A stretch of 42,843 bases of DNA from a virus. The stretch lies in the IMG/VR virus record IMGVR_UViG_3300026484_000012, positions 1 through 42,843 of that record. One strand, 5' to 3'. Numbering within the stretch: the stretch's first letter is position 1; the number at the start of each line of letters is the position of its first letter. The position numbers and the translations under genes were made by a program. Under the pieces are notes generated by a model. It was not told the origin of the DNA, made no database searches, and saw only the letters and a program-made list of their open reading frames with translations. Shown here piece after piece: positions 6,416-42,843 of this stretch.

Positions 6416-6620
6416 TTTAATATAGATTTAATATTAAATTCGATATAATATATTTACATTTAAAGGATATTATATCTTTTAGATTAAATGGACTAATCTT
6501 CGTTTAATCTATATTATGATATAATATATTTACAATTAAGAGATACAAATCTCTTTGGCTTGCGAAGGCCATAAAACTATCTACATAAATTCGCCTGCCA
6601 AGGCACTTAAAGGATATAAT
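6416..6620 (+). promoter_or_regulatory. Tandem promoters P4 and P5 and structured leader
   Basis: P4 has TATAAT at 6444-6449; P5 has TGATATAAT at 6517-6525, preceded by AATCTTCGTTTAAT (6495-6508) exactly as in P1. After P5 the leader (about 6535-6610) contains small hairpins: GAGATACAAATCTC, TGGCTTGCGAAGGCCA, and GCC/GGC before the ribosome site. Two promoters plus a folded leader point to strong, possibly regulated expression of the next gene. Confidence 0.7.
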
Positions 6621-7118
6621 ATGGCAAGTAAAAAAGAAATTTTTGAAACAGTAACAAATGAGGTAACTGCATTATGTGATGAGCACAAAGTAGCAAACAA
6701 ATTCCGTGAAGCATTGATGAATGTTTTAACTGATAATTTAGCACCGAAAGCTGCTGGAGCATCAATTAACATTGATGAAGTAACAAAGAAAAATGCTGAT
6801 GGTAAAATCGCTGAAATTCAATGTTCAGTATCTGGTAAATTCTTACCTGCGACTAAAGAGTTCTTCTATGAAGATAAAGCCGGTAAAGGTATTGTTGGTC
6901 TTGATGGTTCACACCTTAAACGTCTTTCGCGTCAAGCTGAGAGCATTCGTAAACAGTATATCAAAACACTCGCTGCAACTGAAAAAGCAATTATGGCTGA
7001 TGTTCTTGATGGCGTTATGACACCTGAAGAAGGTAAAGCTAAACTTGAAAAAGCTAAAGCTATTAAACCAGACTACTCTAAAGTAACTGCTGAACTTCCT
7101 GCAAAAGAAGAAGAGTAG
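6621..7118 (+). CDS. Probably abundant early protein, paralogue of the 889 gene
   Basis: 165 residues from ATG 6621, which has AAAGGA 8 bases upstream; an in-frame ATG at 6555 lies in the structured leader and has no ribosome site. The N-terminal helical region ending DNLAPK (about residue 39) and the following segment match the protein at 889-1371, including a cysteine after the GKI motif. The C-terminal half is helical, rich in Lys and Ala. Arginine is mostly encoded by CGT, unlike the AGA seen in most neighbours, and two promoters precede it; both suggest high expression. Its place just before the single-stranded DNA-binding protein gene suggests a replication or recombination role. Family not recognised. 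Confidence 0.75.
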   Translation: MASKKEIFETVTNEVTALCDEHKVANKFREALMNVLTDNLAPKAAGASINIDEVTKKNADGKIAEIQCSVSGKFLPATKEFFYEDKAGKGIVGLDGSHLKRLSRQAESIRKQYIKTLAATEKAIMADVLDGVMTPEEGKAKLEKAKAIKPDYSKVTAELPAKEEE

Positions 7119-10607: not shown

Positions 10608-11093
10608 ATGAAAGCATTTATAGGAACAAAGAGAATTAACGCAAAGCCAATGACTAGATTGGAGTACAATGAGTTTAGAGGTTGGACATTACCTACTGAT
10701 GAAAATGGTGATGACGCTGGTATGCTAGTTGAGTATATAGACGGTGGAAAAGGTAATACTGAAGAGTTTAAAGGCTATGTATCTTGGTCCCCACTAGATG
10801 TATTTAACAGAGCTTATACACCAATTAAAGGTATGACTTTTGGAGAGGCTATTCAAGCAATGAAAGCAGGCCAGAGGGTTTGTAGAGCTGACTGGAATGG
10901 TAAGGGTATGTTTATATTTTTAGTTCCTGGGAGCACCTTCAAAGTCAATAGGGAACCACTACTTGGTATCTATAAAGAAGGTACTGAGGTTACTTATCAA
11001 CCTCATGTTGATATGAAAACAGCAGATGGTCAAGTTGTTCCTTGGTTAGCTAGTCAAAGTGACATACTAGATACTGACTGGGAGGTTATATAA
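10608..11093 (+). CDS. tad2: Tad2-like (DUF2829) anti-Thoeris protein with extra N-terminal domain
   Basis: 161 residues. Residues about 76-161 are a DUF2829/Tad2 domain: MTFGEAIQAMKAGQRVCRADW at its start, MFIFLVPGS in the middle, and the typical end VPWLASQSDILDTDWEVI. Tad2 proteins bind the cyclic ADP-ribose signal made by Thoeris and so block that defence. Residues 1-70 form a second domain (FIGTKRINAKPMTR, RGWTLP, GYVSWSPLDVF) that I believe also occurs in other phage proteins, with no function known to me. The gene lies in the replication operon, overlaps the next start by one base, and would be made early, when an anti-defence protein is needed. Domain call is strong; activity is inferred from the family. 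Confidence 0.82.
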   Translation: MKAFIGTKRINAKPMTRLEYNEFRGWTLPTDENGDDAGMLVEYIDGGKGNTEEFKGYVSWSPLDVFNRAYTPIKGMTFGEAIQAMKAGQRVCRADWNGKGMFIFLVPGSTFKVNREPLLGIYKEGTEVTYQPHVDMKTADGQVVPWLASQSDILDTDWEVI

Positions 11094-11797
11094 TGACTAG
11101 AGAATACAAAAAGCTAGTTAATCATATATTACAGTATGGTATAGACCAAGATTGCCGTAATGGCTCACAACGAATTATACCACACTATAGTTTTACATTA
11201 GATTTTAGTGATGAAACTAAAGATAATCACATTCTAAAGCTCAGAAAGATGTGGTATACGGGTGTGGATGGTGAATTTAAAACATTAGTATCAAGAGAGC
11301 CTCTAACTAATGTTTCTCAATTTGAGGCTAATGGTTGTAATTACTGGAAAGACTGGGCGGCTGAAGATGGCAGTTTAACTTTAGACTACTATAATGAATT
11401 ACATCCAGCACTAGATAATGTAATTGAGCAGATTAAGAGAGACCCTGAGAGTCGTAGGCATGTTATTAGTCTATGGAATAATGAACATGCTTTTGATGGT
11501 TCTTTATCTTTACATTGTTGCTGGCATAATCTAACATTTTCTGTAATAGCTGGAGTCTTGCATCTTACGTGGACTCAACGTAGTGTTGATACAATGATAG
11601 GTTTACCTGCGGATATTTATTTAGCAGCTATGTTTATGCACTTTGTAGCCTCGGCTTGTAATCTTAAAGTAGGCACTTGCATGTTTAGTTTATCCAATGT
11701 TCATATTTACAAAGAGCACTTAAAAGGTGCGGTAGAACTATTAAATAGAACTGAAGATGACTATGACAAAGTTTTAAAATTTGAATTGAAGGCTTGA
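11093..11797 (+). CDS. Thymidylate-synthase-fold enzyme, probably dCMP-specific (hydroxymethylase or methylase)
   Basis: 234 residues, close to T4 gp42 and shorter than typical ThyA (about 264). Conserved features: SRRHVISLWN (120-129), catalytic Cys143 in LHCCWHNLTF, TQRSVDTMIGLP (161-172) and NVHIY with His204 and Tyr206. The position that is Asn177 in E. coli ThyA (GLPFNI) is Asp174 here (GLPADI). In T4 dCMP hydroxymethylase the same Asn-to-Asp change gives specificity for dCMP rather than dUMP. The usual PCH around the catalytic cysteine is CCW. The likely product is hydroxymethyl- or methyl-dCMP for modified phage DNA. Plain ThyA is the alternative, but Asp174 argues against it. GGAGG precedes the start. 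Confidence 0.78.
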   Translation: MTREYKKLVNHILQYGIDQDCRNGSQRIIPHYSFTLDFSDETKDNHILKLRKMWYTGVDGEFKTLVSREPLTNVSQFEANGCNYWKDWAAEDGSLTLDYYNELHPALDNVIEQIKRDPESRRHVISLWNNEHAFDGSLSLHCCWHNLTFSVIAGVLHLTWTQRSVDTMIGLPADIYLAAMFMHFVASACNLKVGTCMFSLSNVHIYKEHLKGAVELLNRTEDDYDKVLKFELKA

Positions 11798-11798
11798 T

Positions 11799-12149
11799 AT
11801 GATAGTAGGAACTATATTACTGACAAAGAGTAACAAGTATGTTGATGATGAGGGTAAATTACCCAAACGTCCTAAATTTGATAAGGAATTACTAGCAGGG
11901 ATACTAGCAGGCAGACCTGTTAGTGAAGAAGGTTATAAACTATTACCTCAGTCTTTACAGGCTTTATGTTATACTTCTATAGCACCTCAAATGAGAGTAC
12001 CTATAACTATTAGGGAGCTAGCGAAGTCTGAGCTATTAATAGTTTCACGAAGTCAGGAAGATTTTGAGGGCGGTAAAGAATTTAGACTAAACAATTTTAA
12101 ATGTTTAGTAAAAGATAGAAAGGTAGAAATATGGATTACAATAAGTTAG
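11799..12149 (+). CDS. Small protein, possibly a reduced dihydrofolate-reductase-like fold
   Basis: 116 residues, 1 bp after the previous stop. The N-terminal half (VGTILLTKSNKYVDDEGKLP, then FDKELL, GRPVSEEGYKLLP) recalls the dihydrofolate reductase pattern, in which GKLPW, a helix, a GKPVIMGR-type loop and a LP segment follow in that order. The protein is much shorter than a normal reductase (about 160) and the cofactor motif is not clear. Being next to a folate-dependent enzyme gives the idea some weight, but it may be an unrelated small protein. It overlaps the following gene by 19 bases. Confidence 0.35.
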   Translation: MIVGTILLTKSNKYVDDEGKLPKRPKFDKELLAGILAGRPVSEEGYKLLPQSLQALCYTSIAPQMRVPITIRELAKSELLIVSRSQEDFEGGKEFRLNNFKCLVKDRKVEIWITIS

Positions 12150-12742
12150 CAATAGAAGAAGCTCAAAAATCAACATGTAAAAAGAGAAAAGTTGGTGCTG
12201 TTATAGTTGATGCAGTAGGTGGTGTAATGAGCAAGGGACACAATTTTCACCCAGACCCTATAGGATTATCAATAAATTCAAATATTTGTGAAGATGATGC
12301 AGGAAATACTAGGCCTGAAGTAATACATGCTGAGATGTCTGCGATACAGCAAATACCTGAAGAATATAGAACAGCAGCTAAGTATATTTATGTAACTCAT
12401 CAACCTTGCGAGAATTGTCAGAAAGCTATAGATGCTATAGGACTAGAGATAATCTTAGTAGAGCAGTTTATGAAGTTTGACTCTGGGAAATTGAGATATA
12501 GCCTAGTACCTCCAAGAGCTATGAAAGAGATGGCTAAGGTATTAACATACGGTGCTAAGAAGTATAAACCTAACAATTGGCAGCAAGTTAATGACACTGC
12601 TAGGTATATAGATGCTCTGTATAGACACTTAGAAGCTTGGCGAAGCGGTGAGAAATTAGATGGTGAGAGTGAGCTAAGTCACCTTAGTCATGCTCTCACA
12701 AATATCGCATTTTTGATACATTTTGAAGATATAAATGATTAA
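12131..12742 (+). CDS. dCMP deaminase fused to a DUF5664 (dATP/dGTP diphosphohydrolase N-terminal) domain
   Basis: 203 residues. Residues 1-112 are a cytidine/dCMP deaminase domain with zinc ligands His66 (in HAE, Glu68 catalytic) and Cys93/Cys96 (PCENC). Residues about 115-200 match DUF5664: KFDSGKLRYSLVPP, VLTYGAKKYKPNNW, YRHLEAWRSGE, then HLSHALTNIAFLI. The deaminase makes dUMP from dCMP; DUF5664 is known from phage purine dNTP diphosphohydrolases. The fusion is unusual and joins pyrimidine and purine pool control in one chain. It may compete for dCMP with the product of 11093-11797. AAAGG precedes the start; it is last in the operon before a strong inverted repeat. Confidence 0.8.
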   Translation: MDYNKLAIEEAQKSTCKKRKVGAVIVDAVGGVMSKGHNFHPDPIGLSINSNICEDDAGNTRPEVIHAEMSAIQQIPEEYRTAAKYIYVTHQPCENCQKAIDAIGLEIILVEQFMKFDSGKLRYSLVPPRAMKEMAKVLTYGAKKYKPNNWQQVNDTARYIDALYRHLEAWRSGEKLDGESELSHLSHALTNIAFLIHFEDIND

Positions 12743-12905: not shown

Positions 12906-13118
12906 ATGGTAAAGATACAGGACTATATAAGTAGTCAGCTGGAAGAAATAACTAGTATAGAACTAAAAGCTAAACTAGGAGTTTCTTTAAGTATGCTTAG
13001 CTCATATAAAAAGAGCTATAATCCTAGCCTAGAGGTAGCTAAAAGAGTCTATGAAATAGATAAAGTTGTTTTGCATCCATATGCAGAAGAGTCACTAAAA
13101 TATGAATTGGAGAAATAA
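12906..13118 (+). CDS. Small helix-turn-helix-like protein, possible regulator
   Basis: 70 residues behind its own promoter with an AAAGGAG site. Residues about 17-47 (LKAKLGVSLSMLSSYKK...) look like a helix-turn-helix, as in small Cro-like or XRE-like repressors, followed by a helical tail. Promoter P6 has its -10 inside a 20-bp palindrome, suitable for self-repression by a dimer. It is the only clear small DNA-binding candidate in the early arm, so it is the best guess for the protein reading the palindromic promoters. Regulatory role is inferred. Confidence 0.55.
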   Translation: MVKIQDYISSQLEEITSIELKAKLGVSLSMLSSYKKSYNPSLEVAKRVYEIDKVVLHPYAEESLKYELEK

Positions 13119-13119
13119 A

Positions 13120-13626
13120 ATGACACTAAATGAATTACAAGCTAAGACATTACAATGGAGTGGTGATAGAGGTATCTTAGCAAATGGTAAGATTACAACA
13201 CAAGCACTAAAATTGGGTAGCGAGATGGGAGAGCTGATGGATAATGCAGCTAAAGATAATTTAGAAGCTATGAAAGACGATATTGGTGATTGCCTAGTTG
13301 TATTAACTAACTTAGCTAATCTTGCTGGAACTACATTAGAAGAGTGCTGGGAAGTTGCTTATAATGATATTAAAGATCGTAAAGGCTTTCTAAATGCTAA
13401 TGGTAATTTTATTAAGTCGACAGATAAAAATTATGAACAACTACTAAGGGATTTTGAGGGTACAAACCAAAGAGACCCTAAGTGTGTTAATATAGAGTAT
13501 ATAGATACCTTTACACAGAGCTTACTCTTTGATGACAATACGATTGAGATTATATCAGATAGAGAGTTCCCTATAAATTTCTTTGGTATGTCTAAGTCTT
13601 TTATTTTAAAGGCTTTAAATGATTAG
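13120..13626 (+). CDS. MazG-like NTP pyrophosphohydrolase
   Basis: 168 residues from ATG 13120, with GGAG upstream; the in-frame ATG at 13102 overlaps the HTH gene more and has no good site. The MazG fold signature is present: Glu35 and Glu38 in SEMGEL, and Asp54/Asp57 in DDIGDCLVVL. Enzymes of this all-alpha family remove pyrophosphate from NTPs or dNTPs; T4 gp56, which destroys dCTP, belongs to the same superfamily. Here it could clear unmodified dCTP so that modified cytosine is used. The C-terminal half (about 95-168) is an unrecognised extension. It overlaps the ligase start by 8 bases. Confidence 0.75.
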   Translation: MTLNELQAKTLQWSGDRGILANGKITTQALKLGSEMGELMDNAAKDNLEAMKDDIGDCLVVLTNLANLAGTTLEECWEVAYNDIKDRKGFLNANGNFIKSTDKNYEQLLRDFEGTNQRDPKCVNIEYIDTFTQSLLFDDNTIEIISDREFPINFFGMSKSFILKALND

Positions 13627-14464
13627 GCAGTGTAAAGGCAAGATGCTAGATAAAGTTCCAACAAGTAAACTTATTCAGGATGGCTATTATATGTCAATTA
13701 AATATGATGGTAACTATTGTCAGATACATAAGATAGGAGATGCTGTAACTATTTATAGCTCTGGTAATAAATCTATAAAATTAGATGACTTAGAAGAGTA
13801 TTTAGTTAGCCACAATCCTGATAATGATTTTATTCTGGAGGCCGAATTTATAGGTACTTCAGAAGGTAAACTAGGTGATAGAACTCAGTGCGGCATAATG
13901 ACTACCTGGAGAATTAATACAGCTAAAGGCTTGTCTTGTAATGCATCAAATAATAGATTTGTTATTTTTGATATTATAGTGGGAGGCCTAGCTATTTTTG
14001 AAGAGAGATTACAAATGCTACAACACATTAATCTGCCTTGTAATTTACAAATAGCCGATTTTAGTCTAACTAATTTAGATATAGTGCAAAGCACGGCTAA
14101 ACAACTATGTAAAGACGGGTGGGAAGGTGTTTTTCTTAAACATAAAGACCACACATATAGACCTGGTAAACGTGTTAATGATGCTATTAAAATTAAGATG
14201 AGGCCTACAGCAGACCTATTATGTATCGATATCGAGCCTGGAGAAGGCAAATATGTTGGTATGATTGGTTCATTAATACTTATGGATAGCAAAGGTAGAA
14301 AAGTTAGAGTGGGCAGCGGACTAAATGATGCCCAAAGAAGTAGCTTACATTCTAAGTTTTTAGATAAAGTTATTGAGGTAGAGTATGAACAAATTTTAGA
14401 TACTTATATTCAGCCTACTTTTATAGCAGTTAGAGCGGATAAAACCAAAAAGGAGATAGACTAA
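13619..14464 (+). CDS. ATP-dependent DNA ligase
   Basis: 281 residues. The nucleotidyltransferase motif KYDG holds the adenylated Lys28; motif III-like ILEAEFIG, motif IV-like EGVFLKHKD and motif V IKIKM follow, with an OB-fold C-terminal part (from about 200). It would seal nicks in phage DNA after the exonuclease removes primers. Its length is that of small viral ligases with no extra DNA-binding domain. AAAGG precedes the start. A tiny basic reading frame begins in its stop codon. Confidence 0.88.
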   Translation: MIRQCKGKMLDKVPTSKLIQDGYYMSIKYDGNYCQIHKIGDAVTIYSSGNKSIKLDDLEEYLVSHNPDNDFILEAEFIGTSEGKLGDRTQCGIMTTWRINTAKGLSCNASNNRFVIFDIIVGGLAIFEERLQMLQHINLPCNLQIADFSLTNLDIVQSTAKQLCKDGWEGVFLKHKDHTYRPGKRVNDAIKIKMRPTADLLCIDIEPGEGKYVGMIGSLILMDSKGRKVRVGSGLNDAQRSSLHSKFLDKVIEVEYEQILDTYIQPTFIAVRADKTKKEID

Positions 14465-17789: not shown

Positions 17790-19064
17790 ATGATTACACC
17801 ATATCCCCACCAAATTGAAAAGGCAGAGCAATGTTGGAATATATTAAGAAAAACTGGTTACGTTTATTTAGCAGGAAAACCAAGAAGTGGAAAGACTCTA
17901 ACAGCACTTTTAATTTCAGAGACCTCTACAAATATAGAGAGTGTTCTGATTTTAACAAAGAAAGCGGCAATACCTGGATGGGAGAAGTTTCTAATGGGAA
18001 TGACCCTCAAACACAAATATCACGTCACAAACTATGAACAAGTAGGTAAATGGGATAATGCAAAGAGAAAGGCAAACCTAAAGTTAAATCCTGAAGATTA
18101 CCAACTAGTTATTATAGATGAGTCACATAATCTAGGTACTATAGGTAAACCTTCAGGCAGATATAAAGCTATTAAATCGTTATGCTATAATATACCACAT
18201 ATACATTTAAGTGGTACAGCTATAGTTGAGTCACCTAATAGCATATATCATCAAATGAGTATATCCAAATATAATCCATTTAAGTTTAAGAACTTCTATG
18301 AATTCTTTAGAAAATATGGTAAGCCTTACTATATTAAAGCAGCAGGCAGAGAGATAGCACAATATGACAGATTTAAGCCGGAATTACTAGATGAGATTAA
18401 TAAATTTACTATTTATATGACTCAAGAAGATGCTGGGATATCTAAAGATTGTATGGCTGCGGATAAGGTGCATTATGTTGAGCTAGATGATAAGACCAAG
18501 AGATTATATAATGTTTTACAAGAGGATAACATAGCCGAAGTATATAAAGGTTGTACTATACACAATGAACCTAGTATATGGAATAATTCTCAGGAAGTTT
18601 ATGATTTAGTCTGTGATACAACTATGAAGCTAAGAACTTCTTTACATATGTTAGAGTCAGGTATAGCTAAAATAGAAGATAAATATATAGATTTAGGTAA
18701 TAATGAGAAAATAGACTATATCTATAGTACTTTTGGGGATACTGAAGATGTTGGTATTATGTGTCACTTTGTAGGTGAGAGAATTAAATTAGAAAAAAGG
18801 TTTAAAAATGCAAAAATTTATAGCAGTTCGTCACATGCTGAAGGTGTTGACCTTTCTCATCTTAAGCACTTTATTATACTTAGTTCTGATTATTCAGGCA
18901 GCAAGTTTATACAGCGCCGTGACCGGATCGTCAATATCAATGGTAGTAACACCACAACAGTTAACCATATCTTGGTAAAAAATGCTATATCAGAACAAGT
19001 ATATAAAAAGGTGAGTAAGAAGGAGGACTTTAATAACTCGACATATAAGAGGGAGACTATCTAG
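17790..19064 (+). CDS. SNF2/superfamily 2 DNA helicase
   Basis: 424 residues. Walker A GKPRSGKT (29-36), DESH box (110-113), SGTA (141-144) and, near residue 380, QRRDR (motif VI) identify a compact superfamily 2 ATPase of the SNF2-like type often found in phages. It would translocate on double-stranded DNA; proposed roles are replication restart, recombination or removal of bound proteins. It is the last gene of the early arm and runs head-on into the last late gene, with 8 bp of shared coding sequence at the ends. AAGGA precedes the start. Confidence 0.83.
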   Translation: MITPYPHQIEKAEQCWNILRKTGYVYLAGKPRSGKTLTALLISETSTNIESVLILTKKAAIPGWEKFLMGMTLKHKYHVTNYEQVGKWDNAKRKANLKLNPEDYQLVIIDESHNLGTIGKPSGRYKAIKSLCYNIPHIHLSGTAIVESPNSIYHQMSISKYNPFKFKNFYEFFRKYGKPYYIKAAGREIAQYDRFKPELLDEINKFTIYMTQEDAGISKDCMAADKVHYVELDDKTKRLYNVLQEDNIAEVYKGCTIHNEPSIWNNSQEVYDLVCDTTMKLRTSLHMLESGIAKIEDKYIDLGNNEKIDYIYSTFGDTEDVGIMCHFVGERIKLEKRFKNAKIYSSSSHAEGVDLSHLKHFIILSSDYSGSKFIQRRDRIVNINGSNTTTVNHILVKNAISEQVYKKVSKKEDFNNSTYKRETI

Positions 19065-19068
19065 TCTC
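19053..19068. terminator. Hairpin at the convergent junction
   Basis: GAGACTA (19053-19059), TC, TAGTCTC (19062-19068), followed on the + strand by TGTCTTTTGCTT. It lies in the overlap of the last + and last - gene, so it could stop both transcripts. The T-tail is modest, so confidence is limited. Confidence 0.5.
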
Positions 19069-19776
19069 TGTCTTTTGCTTGTTTATTGAAGTCATTAATC
19101 CAATAACGCCAAGCGCTGGTACAGCACCCTTTATAGTTTTTAGATATATTAATTTAGTATTATGGTATTTATTATACTGAGTTTTAAACATTCTTATAAT
19201 ATCCTCGTCGTCAAGTATCCCGGCATCTCTTTGCCGTCTAAAACTATCAGATAATCTATATCTAAGTATAGCCTCATCGATTGTTTTATACTTATATTCT
19301 TTTGGAGTATAATTAAAATTATAAGGTTCTATAGAAAATACTTCTAAGGCCTGACTAGGTTTTAAAAGCACTTCATCTTCAAAATCAGAAAACTCGGTAA
19401 TATCTCTTAAGCCATCACCTCTACTATCTAAGATTTTAAATAATACAGGATTATCATTATTAGTAAGACCTCTATCTATTATAAAATCTTCAGCCATACC
19501 TTTATCTTTACTAGTAGAACCTATAAAGTTTAACTTAAATCTTCCACCAGGCTTTAACTTACTAAATTGCTCATTAGTTAAAGCAGTACCTCTGTAAACA
19601 AAGCCTTTATACTTTGGCAACCTTTCTAAATTTTGTTCTACAATTTTGTGTAATTCTTTATCATTAGAATACAAAGCTTGGTTTATTTCTTTTGAAGACA
19701 TCACATAATTTTCCAGGAAATTATCTAATTCTTTATATCTCTCTAAAGCTTCTTTCATTAATTTACTGCATTTCAT
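19057..19776 (-). CDS. ADP-ribosyltransferase-like protein 1 (R-S-E motif intact)
   Basis: 239 residues. The order of motifs fits the arginine-type (R-S-E) ADP-ribosyltransferases: Arg62 in VYRGT, GSTS at 86-89, and Glu133/Glu135 in DFEDEVLL (ExE). Such enzymes attach ADP-ribose from NAD+ to host proteins; T4 packages the related activity Alt. The first 12 residues (MKCSKLMKEALE) match the next protein upstream. A hydrophobic stretch near 217-231 may touch membranes. It is the last late gene, after ejection proteins, so an injected effector is plausible. AAGGA precedes the start. Family call is good; target unknown. Confidence 0.72.
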   Translation of the reverse strand: MKCSKLMKEALERYKELDNFLENYVMSSKEINQALYSNDKELHKIVEQNLERLPKYKGFVYRGTALTNEQFSKLKPGGRFKLNFIGSTSKDKGMAEDFIIDRGLTNNDNPVLFKILDSRGDGLRDITEFSDFEDEVLLKPSQALEVFSIEPYNFNYTPKEYKYKTIDEAILRYRLSDSFRRQRDAGILDDEDIIRMFKTQYNKYHNTKLIYLKTIKGAVPALGVIGLMTSINKQKTETR

Positions 19777-19806: not shown

Positions 19807-20424
19807 TTATTTTTTAACCTCTTGATGTATTTCAAGCTTATTAGCTAATGGCAGTAATATGGCTGCAGATAACAAAGAAATAGTTGCTTTATTACGTCTA
19901 TTTCTTGTAGCTGTTAGCTTGATTATTACTAAATCATCATTACTTCTATTTATACTATCTACTATAAAAGCTGTATCAGGTTTTATTAAAACTTCTGTTT
20001 CTGCTGGATTAACATGAGTTAAATCATATTGTGGCACATTAGAATTATCTATCTCATATCTAACCTTTATCTTATCTGGGTGTTTAAGTAGTCTCTTAGC
20101 TACTATCGAAGAGAAAATATCGTTCTCTTCTGAATTCACACTAGTTGCAAAAGGAAAAGTATTAGTTGTATAGTCTCCAGCTTTCAGTCTATTAACTAAA
20201 TCTTTATCTATCATACCTATTCTAGAGGTAGTACCTTTATAGCTAGGTGTAACAGATTTGAAAAACTCATCTAACTCTTTATGCTTACCAGTTTTTAAAT
20301 ATGCTTTAACTATAGCTCCACTGTGTTTAATCCAATTATATACTGCCTGTAACCCATAGTCTTTATCCGAAACTTTATCTTCTATACCCTCTAAAGCCTC
20401 TTTTAGCAATTTACTACATTTCAT
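19807..20424 (-). CDS. ADP-ribosyltransferase-like protein 2 (diverged)
   Basis: 205 residues, tandem partner of the preceding entry, starting with MKCSKLLKEALE. The same three motifs can be placed: SYKGT (61-65) with Lys63 where Arg is expected, FATS (92-95), and ExE at Glu142/Glu144 in AETEVLI. Loss of the arginine may weaken NAD+ binding or shift chemistry. A hydrophobic segment (about 181-195) is near the C terminus. After an A6 run close to the stop, another frame reads on to IKELSKDCE, echoing the end of the 769-residue protein upstream. The start overlaps the stop of that gene (TAATG) and has AAAGGA. Confidence 0.58.
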   Translation of the reverse strand: MKCSKLLKEALEGIEDKVSDKDYGLQAVYNWIKHSGAIVKAYLKTGKHKELDEFFKSVTPSYKGTTSRIGMIDKDLVNRLKAGDYTTNTFPFATSVNSEENDIFSSIVAKRLLKHPDKIKVRYEIDNSNVPQYDLTHVNPAETEVLIKPDTAFIVDSINRSNDDLVIIKLTATRNRRNKATISLLSAAILLPLANKLEIHQEVKK

Positions 20425-42720: not shown

Positions 42721-42843
42721 TTCCAACGGATTATAATATAATAACAAATTCCAACGGATTATAATATAATAACAAATTCCAACGGATTATAATATAATAA
42801 CAAATTCCAACGGATTATAATATAATAACAAATTCCAACGGAT
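42721..42843. repeat. Right copy of the terminal repeat (28-bp array)
   Basis: Identical base for base to 1-123. Just before it, TACCAGCAAA (42711-42720) is a degenerate copy of TTCCAACAAA at 10-bp spacing. The end of the identity inside the array and the presence of both copies indicate circular closure of the contig or a physical direct terminal repeat. Confidence 0.95.

Follow-up and report, generated by a model that had tools for sequence, protein, structure and literature searches.

Introduction

Full replacement of DNA cytosine by 5-methylcytosine (5mC) is well documented for XP12 and a few others. In XP12, all cytosine of the DNA is present as 5mC, and a dCMP methyltransferase is produced in the cells it infects (PMC8543423). 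Exchange of a single Asn for Asp in thymidylate synthase (TS) shifts the preference of the enzyme from dUMP to dCMP, so that it becomes a methylase of dCMP (PMC8670742 and references therein); in E. coli ThyA (EcThyA) this residue is Asn177. The MetaGPA study found Asp177 mainly in modified contigs, and identified positions 177 and 147 as the best separators of TS from cytosine-modified and unmodified contigs (PMC8670742). In connection with modified contigs it names TS, dCMP deaminase, a MafB19-like deaminase domain and both ligase domains, and it reports an association of the OB_2 ligase domain with these contigs (PMC8670742). The sugar of the substrate is read separately, with Ser167 and Arg126 favouring deoxyribose (PMC5175136).

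The same fold also supports hydroxymethylation. In T4 gp42, published work has connected Asp179 with dCMP specificity, and Asp145, three residues before the catalytic Cys148, activates water, a D145N mutant being dead (PMC6400193). Another water is held by Ser94-x-Tyr96, Val85 replaces Trp83 of TS, and the C-terminal tail is missing (PMC6400193). The published signature of hydroxylation is Asp or Glu at position -3 of the catalytic Cys, and in tertiary structure T4 Ser94 corresponds to Val93 of the E. coli TS (PMC6400193).

Results

The window analysed here is the entire 42.8 kb (42,843 nt) virus record IMGVR_UViG_3300026484_000012, with a GC content of 34%. It is probably a complete genome, because a 123-bp direct repeat is found at both ends (1-123 and 42721-42843). 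Outside the region discussed below, the record encodes a free-standing GIY-YIG homing endonuclease (490-831, + strand) and a small protein family of unknown function that is present in two distant copies (889-1371 and 6555-7118, + strand; 37% identical over 75 aa, E 1e-15). Two adjacent related proteins with 29% identity lie among the virion genes on the - strand (19057-19776 and 19807-20424), the first of which weakly matches a phage RNA polymerase ADP-ribosylase (phrog_832, E 0.001).

The sole TS of the record is an intact, stop-free ORF of 234 aa (11093-11797, + strand), which matches the Pfam family Thymidylat_synt (PF00303) with an E-value of 9e-39 over positions 2-228. Its AF2 model has a pLDDT of 96.2, and in a Foldseek search it was nearest to TS structures, including L. 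casei N229D with dCMP; the T4 dCMP hydroxymethylase was not among the 50 best matches. In the MAFFT alignment, the catalytic Cys143 (codon 11519-11521, aligned with EcThyA Cys146) is the second cysteine of the motif LHCCWHN, where the relative L006 has HSCW. Arg22, Glu61, Arg121/122 and Arg163 correspond to EcThyA R21, E58, R126/127 and R166, and Ser164, Asp166, His204 and Tyr206 to S167, D169, H207 and Y209. The ORF thus belongs to the TS superfamily by its profile match over most of the domain, its catalytic Cys and its fold. Purifying selection acts on the gene (dN/dS about 0.16-0.29). A decayed TS was excluded, since the catalytic residues are all kept and dN/dS is well below 1, as was an assembly artefact, since five relatives that are 69-73% identical occur on other contigs.

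The window motif GLPADI aligned on GLPFNI of EcThyA, which places Asp174 (codon 11612-11614) on EcThyA Asn177 and T4 gp42 Asp179; the Asn177 of canonical dUMP TS is thus absent. The initial annotation had pointed out this TS fold with Asp in place of the dUMP-reading Asn, and the profile match, the alignment and a survey of relatives all bear it out. For this survey, two IMG/VR scans, one of which yielded 159 clade relatives, were combined with a phage collection to give 87 usable sequences, including those of Edwardsiella phage KF-1, Pseudoalteromonas phage PH1, VPMS1 and Dickeya phage Amaethon. Position 177 is occupied by Asp in 86 of these 87 clade members, many of which are only 32-40% identical to the window protein. 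Judging from this conservation and from the purifying selection, Asp174 is not there by chance, and the ORF is established at the sequence level as a TS homologue with the dCMP-reading residue. Position 147 is changed as well: in the window subclade, which comprises 13 short proteins of 231-236 aa, Trp replaces His147. Ser167 and Arg126 (Ser164 and Arg121 of the window enzyme) are kept in all 87 sequences. A ribo-CMP enzyme of the type of the CMP hydroxymethylase MilA was excluded, as the Ala and Lys of MilA are absent and Ser167 and Arg126 are retained. Specificity for dCMP is well supported because Asp177 is present in 86/87 clade members, and dCMP is very probably the substrate.

An ordinary dUMP thymidylate synthase that merely tolerates Asp and serves dTTP supply would be consistent with the TS fold and TS-like pocket, with an adjoining dCMP deaminase that would provide dUMP, with a DHFR-like neighbour typical of TS operons (as in the frd-td order of T4-like phages), and with a relative (L091) that has Asn at 177. 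We consider it improbable in view of the retention of Asp across a deep clade, the known switch from dUMP to dCMP on Asn-to-Asp exchange and the occurrence of Asp177 mainly in MetaGPA modified contigs (PMC8670742). The relative in question (L091, 9995-10810), the sole exception in the clade, carries the motif GLPSNI and has a mini-DHFR-like gene behind its TS; a reversion to dUMP use is possible in its case.

In a quick maximum-likelihood tree of 57 sequences, the 38 rows of the clade formed one group (SH-aLRT 99) beside canonical TS; the T4-type dCMP hydroxymethylases (SH-aLRT 99) and the XP12-like enzymes (99) each formed a clade separate from it. SPO1 and Eleri are of unsure placement because of their long branches, and no SPO1-type relatives were found in IMG/VR. 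The tree suggests that Asp177 arose more than once. Our search of the literature on base composition found nothing for the DNA of KF-1, PH1, VPMS1 or Amaethon.

The Asp in the substrate pocket had been taken as the mark of T4 dCMP hydroxymethylase, with the length of 234 residues as further support. T4 gp42 does share Asp at 177, the catalytic Cys and a similar length with the window enzyme, but it lacks the tail, has Asp at -3, Val at 83 and Thr at 147, and falls in a separate clade. At -3, Asp was found in 82/82 of the T4-type sequences compared, in contrast to Leu in all 85 clade members with an aligned Cys (window Leu140, codon 11510-11512; EcThyA Leu143). The T4-type label is therefore not supported. 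The agreement in length is a coincidence: window-type proteins are without about 35 internal residues before the tail and keep the tail, which gp42 lacks.

Canonical TS (E. coli ThyA and T4-type td) has in common with the window enzyme the fold, Leu at -3, Trp83, the tail and all catalytic residues; it differs in Asn177, Phe176, Val or Ile at 93 and about 35 more residues before the tail. Trp83 (window Trp88) is kept in 86/87 clade members, and the window tail LKFELKA (11774-11794) corresponds to IKAPVAI of EcThyA. The Ser or Thr found two residues before the catalytic Tyr in T4-type enzymes is absent from the window enzyme, which reads T-L-D-Y with Leu at this place. The window enzyme thus presents the residue pattern of a dCMP methylase, Asp177 with TS-like Leu143, Trp83 and tail. 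This pattern, together with the TS-nearest AF2 model, fits methylation. The XP12-like enzymes have Asn rather than Leu at -3, which counts against a methylase. Outside the T4 group, Asp at -3 is also present in the SPO1 gp29 dUMP hydroxymethylase (DRPC), in MilA (DVAC) and in a TS-like protein of Microbacterium phage Eleri, which has a glycosyltransferase near its gene; these are single sequences, so that beyond T4-type enzymes the -3 rule is supported by no more than one sequence of each kind.

One residue does not follow the TS pattern. Asp98 (codon 11384-11386), at the position of EcThyA Val93, is invariant in the clade (87/87), adjoins the catalytic Tyr99 and is not seen in TS. It could in principle activate water, and because its invariance at the Val93 position is unexplained, hydroxymethylation was kept as the main rival of methylation. 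Water would then attack the methylene to give 5-hydroxymethyl-dCMP, with Asp98 replacing T4 Asp145 as the water-activating acid. Such an enzyme would share Asp177 with T4 gp42, and would have its acid at the tertiary counterpart of T4 Ser94 (PMC6400193). MetaGPA moreover found a 5hmC carbamoyltransferase in the company of TS, pyrophosphohydrolase and deaminase. All the same, a dCMP hydroxymethylase appears unlikely: Asp or Glu at -3 is absent in 85/85 sequences, Trp83 and the tail are kept, and a DHFR-fold partner is present. The 5hmC-tailoring carbamoyltransferase (PF16861) was found in 0 of 50 clade genomes, and no glycosyltransferase was recognised among the window ORFs scanned, in keeping with the initial annotation. 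Among 80 loci from IMG/VR that carry a carbamoyltransferase-like motif, just three had a TS nearby, in each case with Asn177. The carbamoyltransferase is uninformative as a calibrator of the product, because of its absence from the 50 clade genomes and the Asn177 of every nearby TS.

Dihydrofolate is a product of TS-type methylation but not of hydroxymethylation, so that a DHFR-like partner would favour methylation. By Pfam, a complete DHFR is rare in the clade, with three matches in 50 records, two of which are miniature DHFR-fold proteins; this rarity speaks for a hydroxymethylase. Pfam detected no DHFR in the window and 13 relatives. This absence at first seemed to favour hydroxymethylation as well, but only until the structure of the protein encoded directly behind the TS was predicted. 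This ORF (11799-12149, + strand; 116 aa) starts one base past the TS stop, and a homologue follows TS in 19 loci, the window included. It has no Pfam or PHROG match. Its AF2 model (pLDDT 94.8) is predicted to have the DHFR fold: all 50 best PDB matches in Foldseek were DHFR (best E 7.8e-5, probability 1.00, TM-score by query length 0.46-0.66). With dN/dS values of 0.06-0.44, this gene too is under purifying selection, and the relative L043 has a full DHFR (E 9.7e-46) at this position.

Similarity at the sequence level was faint. Residues 2-56 run in register with several PDB DHFRs at E 0.06-1.5, values that an unrelated protein equals; 2 of the 19 family members reached DHFR_1 (best E 0.0033), the window protein reaching no Pfam family; and hhalign placed family columns 15-55 on DHFR 15-55 with a probability of only 11%. 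Besides the predicted fold, the miniature protein shares with DHFR the N-terminal strand-loop-helix and an Asp28 that is invariant in the family and stands in the place of E. coli Asp27. It differs from E. coli DHFR in length (116 versus 159 aa) and in that the NADPH motifs GRxT and GG, and Arg57, are not recognisable in the family alignment. With these motifs unrecognisable, a link of the protein to dihydrofolate recycling is weak, and cofactor binding by the small protein is doubtful; as evidence for methylation the neighbour is supportive, not decisive.

The next gene downstream (12131-12742, + strand) encodes a dCMP deaminase (PF00383, E 1.7e-18) fused to a dATP/dGTP-diphosphohydrolase-type domain (PF18909, E 2e-32), an unusual fusion of two nucleotide-pool enzymes. 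It is followed by a MazG-like nucleotide pyrophosphatase (13102-13626, + strand; PF03819, E 7e-6; phrog_1992, E 4e-37), a candidate dCTP-removing enzyme, by an ATP-dependent DNA ligase with an OB_2 domain (13619-14464, + strand; PF01068, PF14743) and, after the ligase gene, by NrdA/NrdB. In KF-1-type relatives a pyrophosphatase-like protein is encoded behind TS (36 loci by motif count); PRA-PH scored above the Pfam cut-off for this downstream protein in VPMS1 and more weakly in PH1 and KF-1. The window has no dNMP kinase, as the initial annotation had correctly noted; in a close relative from the window subclade, L025, the gene behind TS encodes a deoxynucleoside monophosphate kinase of the T4 gp1 type (PF21448, E 2e-8; phrog_139, E 1.6e-27). 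GKD-motif P-loop proteins weakly resembling the T4 gp1 kinase were observed downstream of TS in L041, L056, L081, L087, L089 and L094.

On the other side of the TS gene, and overlapping its start codon by one base, lies a gene for a Tad2-like (Thoeris anti-defence 2) protein (10608-11093, + strand; PF11195, E 9e-27). In the close relatives that we examined, no Tad2-like gene was seen directly upstream of TS.

Discussion

Our findings point to a TS-type dCMP C5-methylase giving 5-methyl-dCMP, to which we assign a probability of roughly 0.6. The residues, clade conservation and neighbours are observed and the folds predicted; we prefer a dCMP methylase because of Asp177, the TS-like Leu at -3, Trp83 and tail, the TS-nearest model, the DHFR-fold neighbour and the pathway neighbours. 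Asp98, a miniature DHFR-fold protein without recognisable NADPH motifs and with weak sequence-level similarity, a MazG-like enzyme that is no more than a candidate dCTPase, and the want of a dNMP kinase in the window count against it. The initial annotation had proposed hydroxymethyl- or methylcytosine with emphasis on the former. The cytosine substrate stands, in agreement with Asp177 in 86/87 clade members, with the neighbours and with published work (PMC8670742; PMC6400193). The emphasis on hydroxymethylation does not, the signature being absent and the TS-like Trp83, Leu143, tail and DHFR-fold gene speaking better for methyl.

In such a methylase, Asp174 would read the cytosine base, Cys143 would attack C6 and methylene-THF would donate the carbon, so that methylene-THF and dCMP would yield 5-methyl-dCMP and DHF. 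Leu140, Trp88 and the C-terminal tail would keep the pocket closed to water, and the methylene would consequently be reduced by the folate hydride rather than hydrated. Host kinases would phosphorylate the product in the window phage, as the gp1-type kinase would in L025, and the phage DNA polymerase would then incorporate it. Normal dCTP and dCMP may be drawn down by the MazG-like enzyme and the dCMP deaminase, and the DHFR-fold neighbour may recycle or handle dihydrofolate. The genome would then carry 5mC, probably as a protection against host restriction.

Alternatively, the product of a dCMP methylase or hydroxymethylase might be left in the nucleotide pool or only partly used, for instance in depriving the host of dCTP, leaving virion DNA not fully modified. 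The dCTPase role of the MazG-like enzyme is only a candidate one, and the window has no nucleotide kinase, as such a pool-only product would allow. MetaGPA, however, ties this residue class and the neighbour domains to cytosine modification at the level of DNA, and we regard this alternative as very improbable.

For the preferred methylase, the closest functional parallel is XP12. A search of the phage collection did not find XP12, so its relatives DLP4 and AXL1 were used in its stead, and the likeness to XP12 is through these relatives. They share with the window Asp177, a dCMP deaminase, a nucleotide pyrophosphohydrolase, a DNA ligase, NrdA (PRK09102 type), NrdB, PolA and a DHFR in the genome. 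Their enzymes belong to a separate clade, with an Asn-Val/Ile-Pro-Cys-Pro active site in contrast to Leu-His-Cys-Cys-Trp of the window and with Ala instead of Asp at position 93, and the DHFR of DLP4 is a conventional one, unlike the 116-aa protein of the window. The best reading is that the window enzyme works like the XP12 system and is of separate descent, not a member of it. The TS of cytosine-modified phage contigs in MetaGPA are alike in Asp177, in the changed position 147 and in their deaminase and ligase neighbours (PMC8670742). The kind of enzyme is thus already known from XP12 and MetaGPA; what is new is the separate clade, the residues it has at -3 and 93, and a DHFR-fold partner of miniature size. 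It is tempting to speculate, and only tentatively, that a lineage other than that of XP12 achieves whole-genome 5mC through a TS turned dCMP methylase and a 116-aa DHFR-fold partner that either reduces DHF with a rebuilt cofactor site or acts as a folate-binding subunit. If active, this partner would fall far short of E. coli DHFR in length.

The clade offers a natural test of methyl versus hydroxymethyl transfer in the TS fold, through the residue at -3 and Asp at 93. Should its members make 5-methyl-dCMP, methylation of cytosine ahead of replication would be common among small podophages whose enzyme is annotated just as "thymidylate synthase". Such podophages would escape many restriction enzymes, yet they would become targets of 5mC-dependent nucleases.
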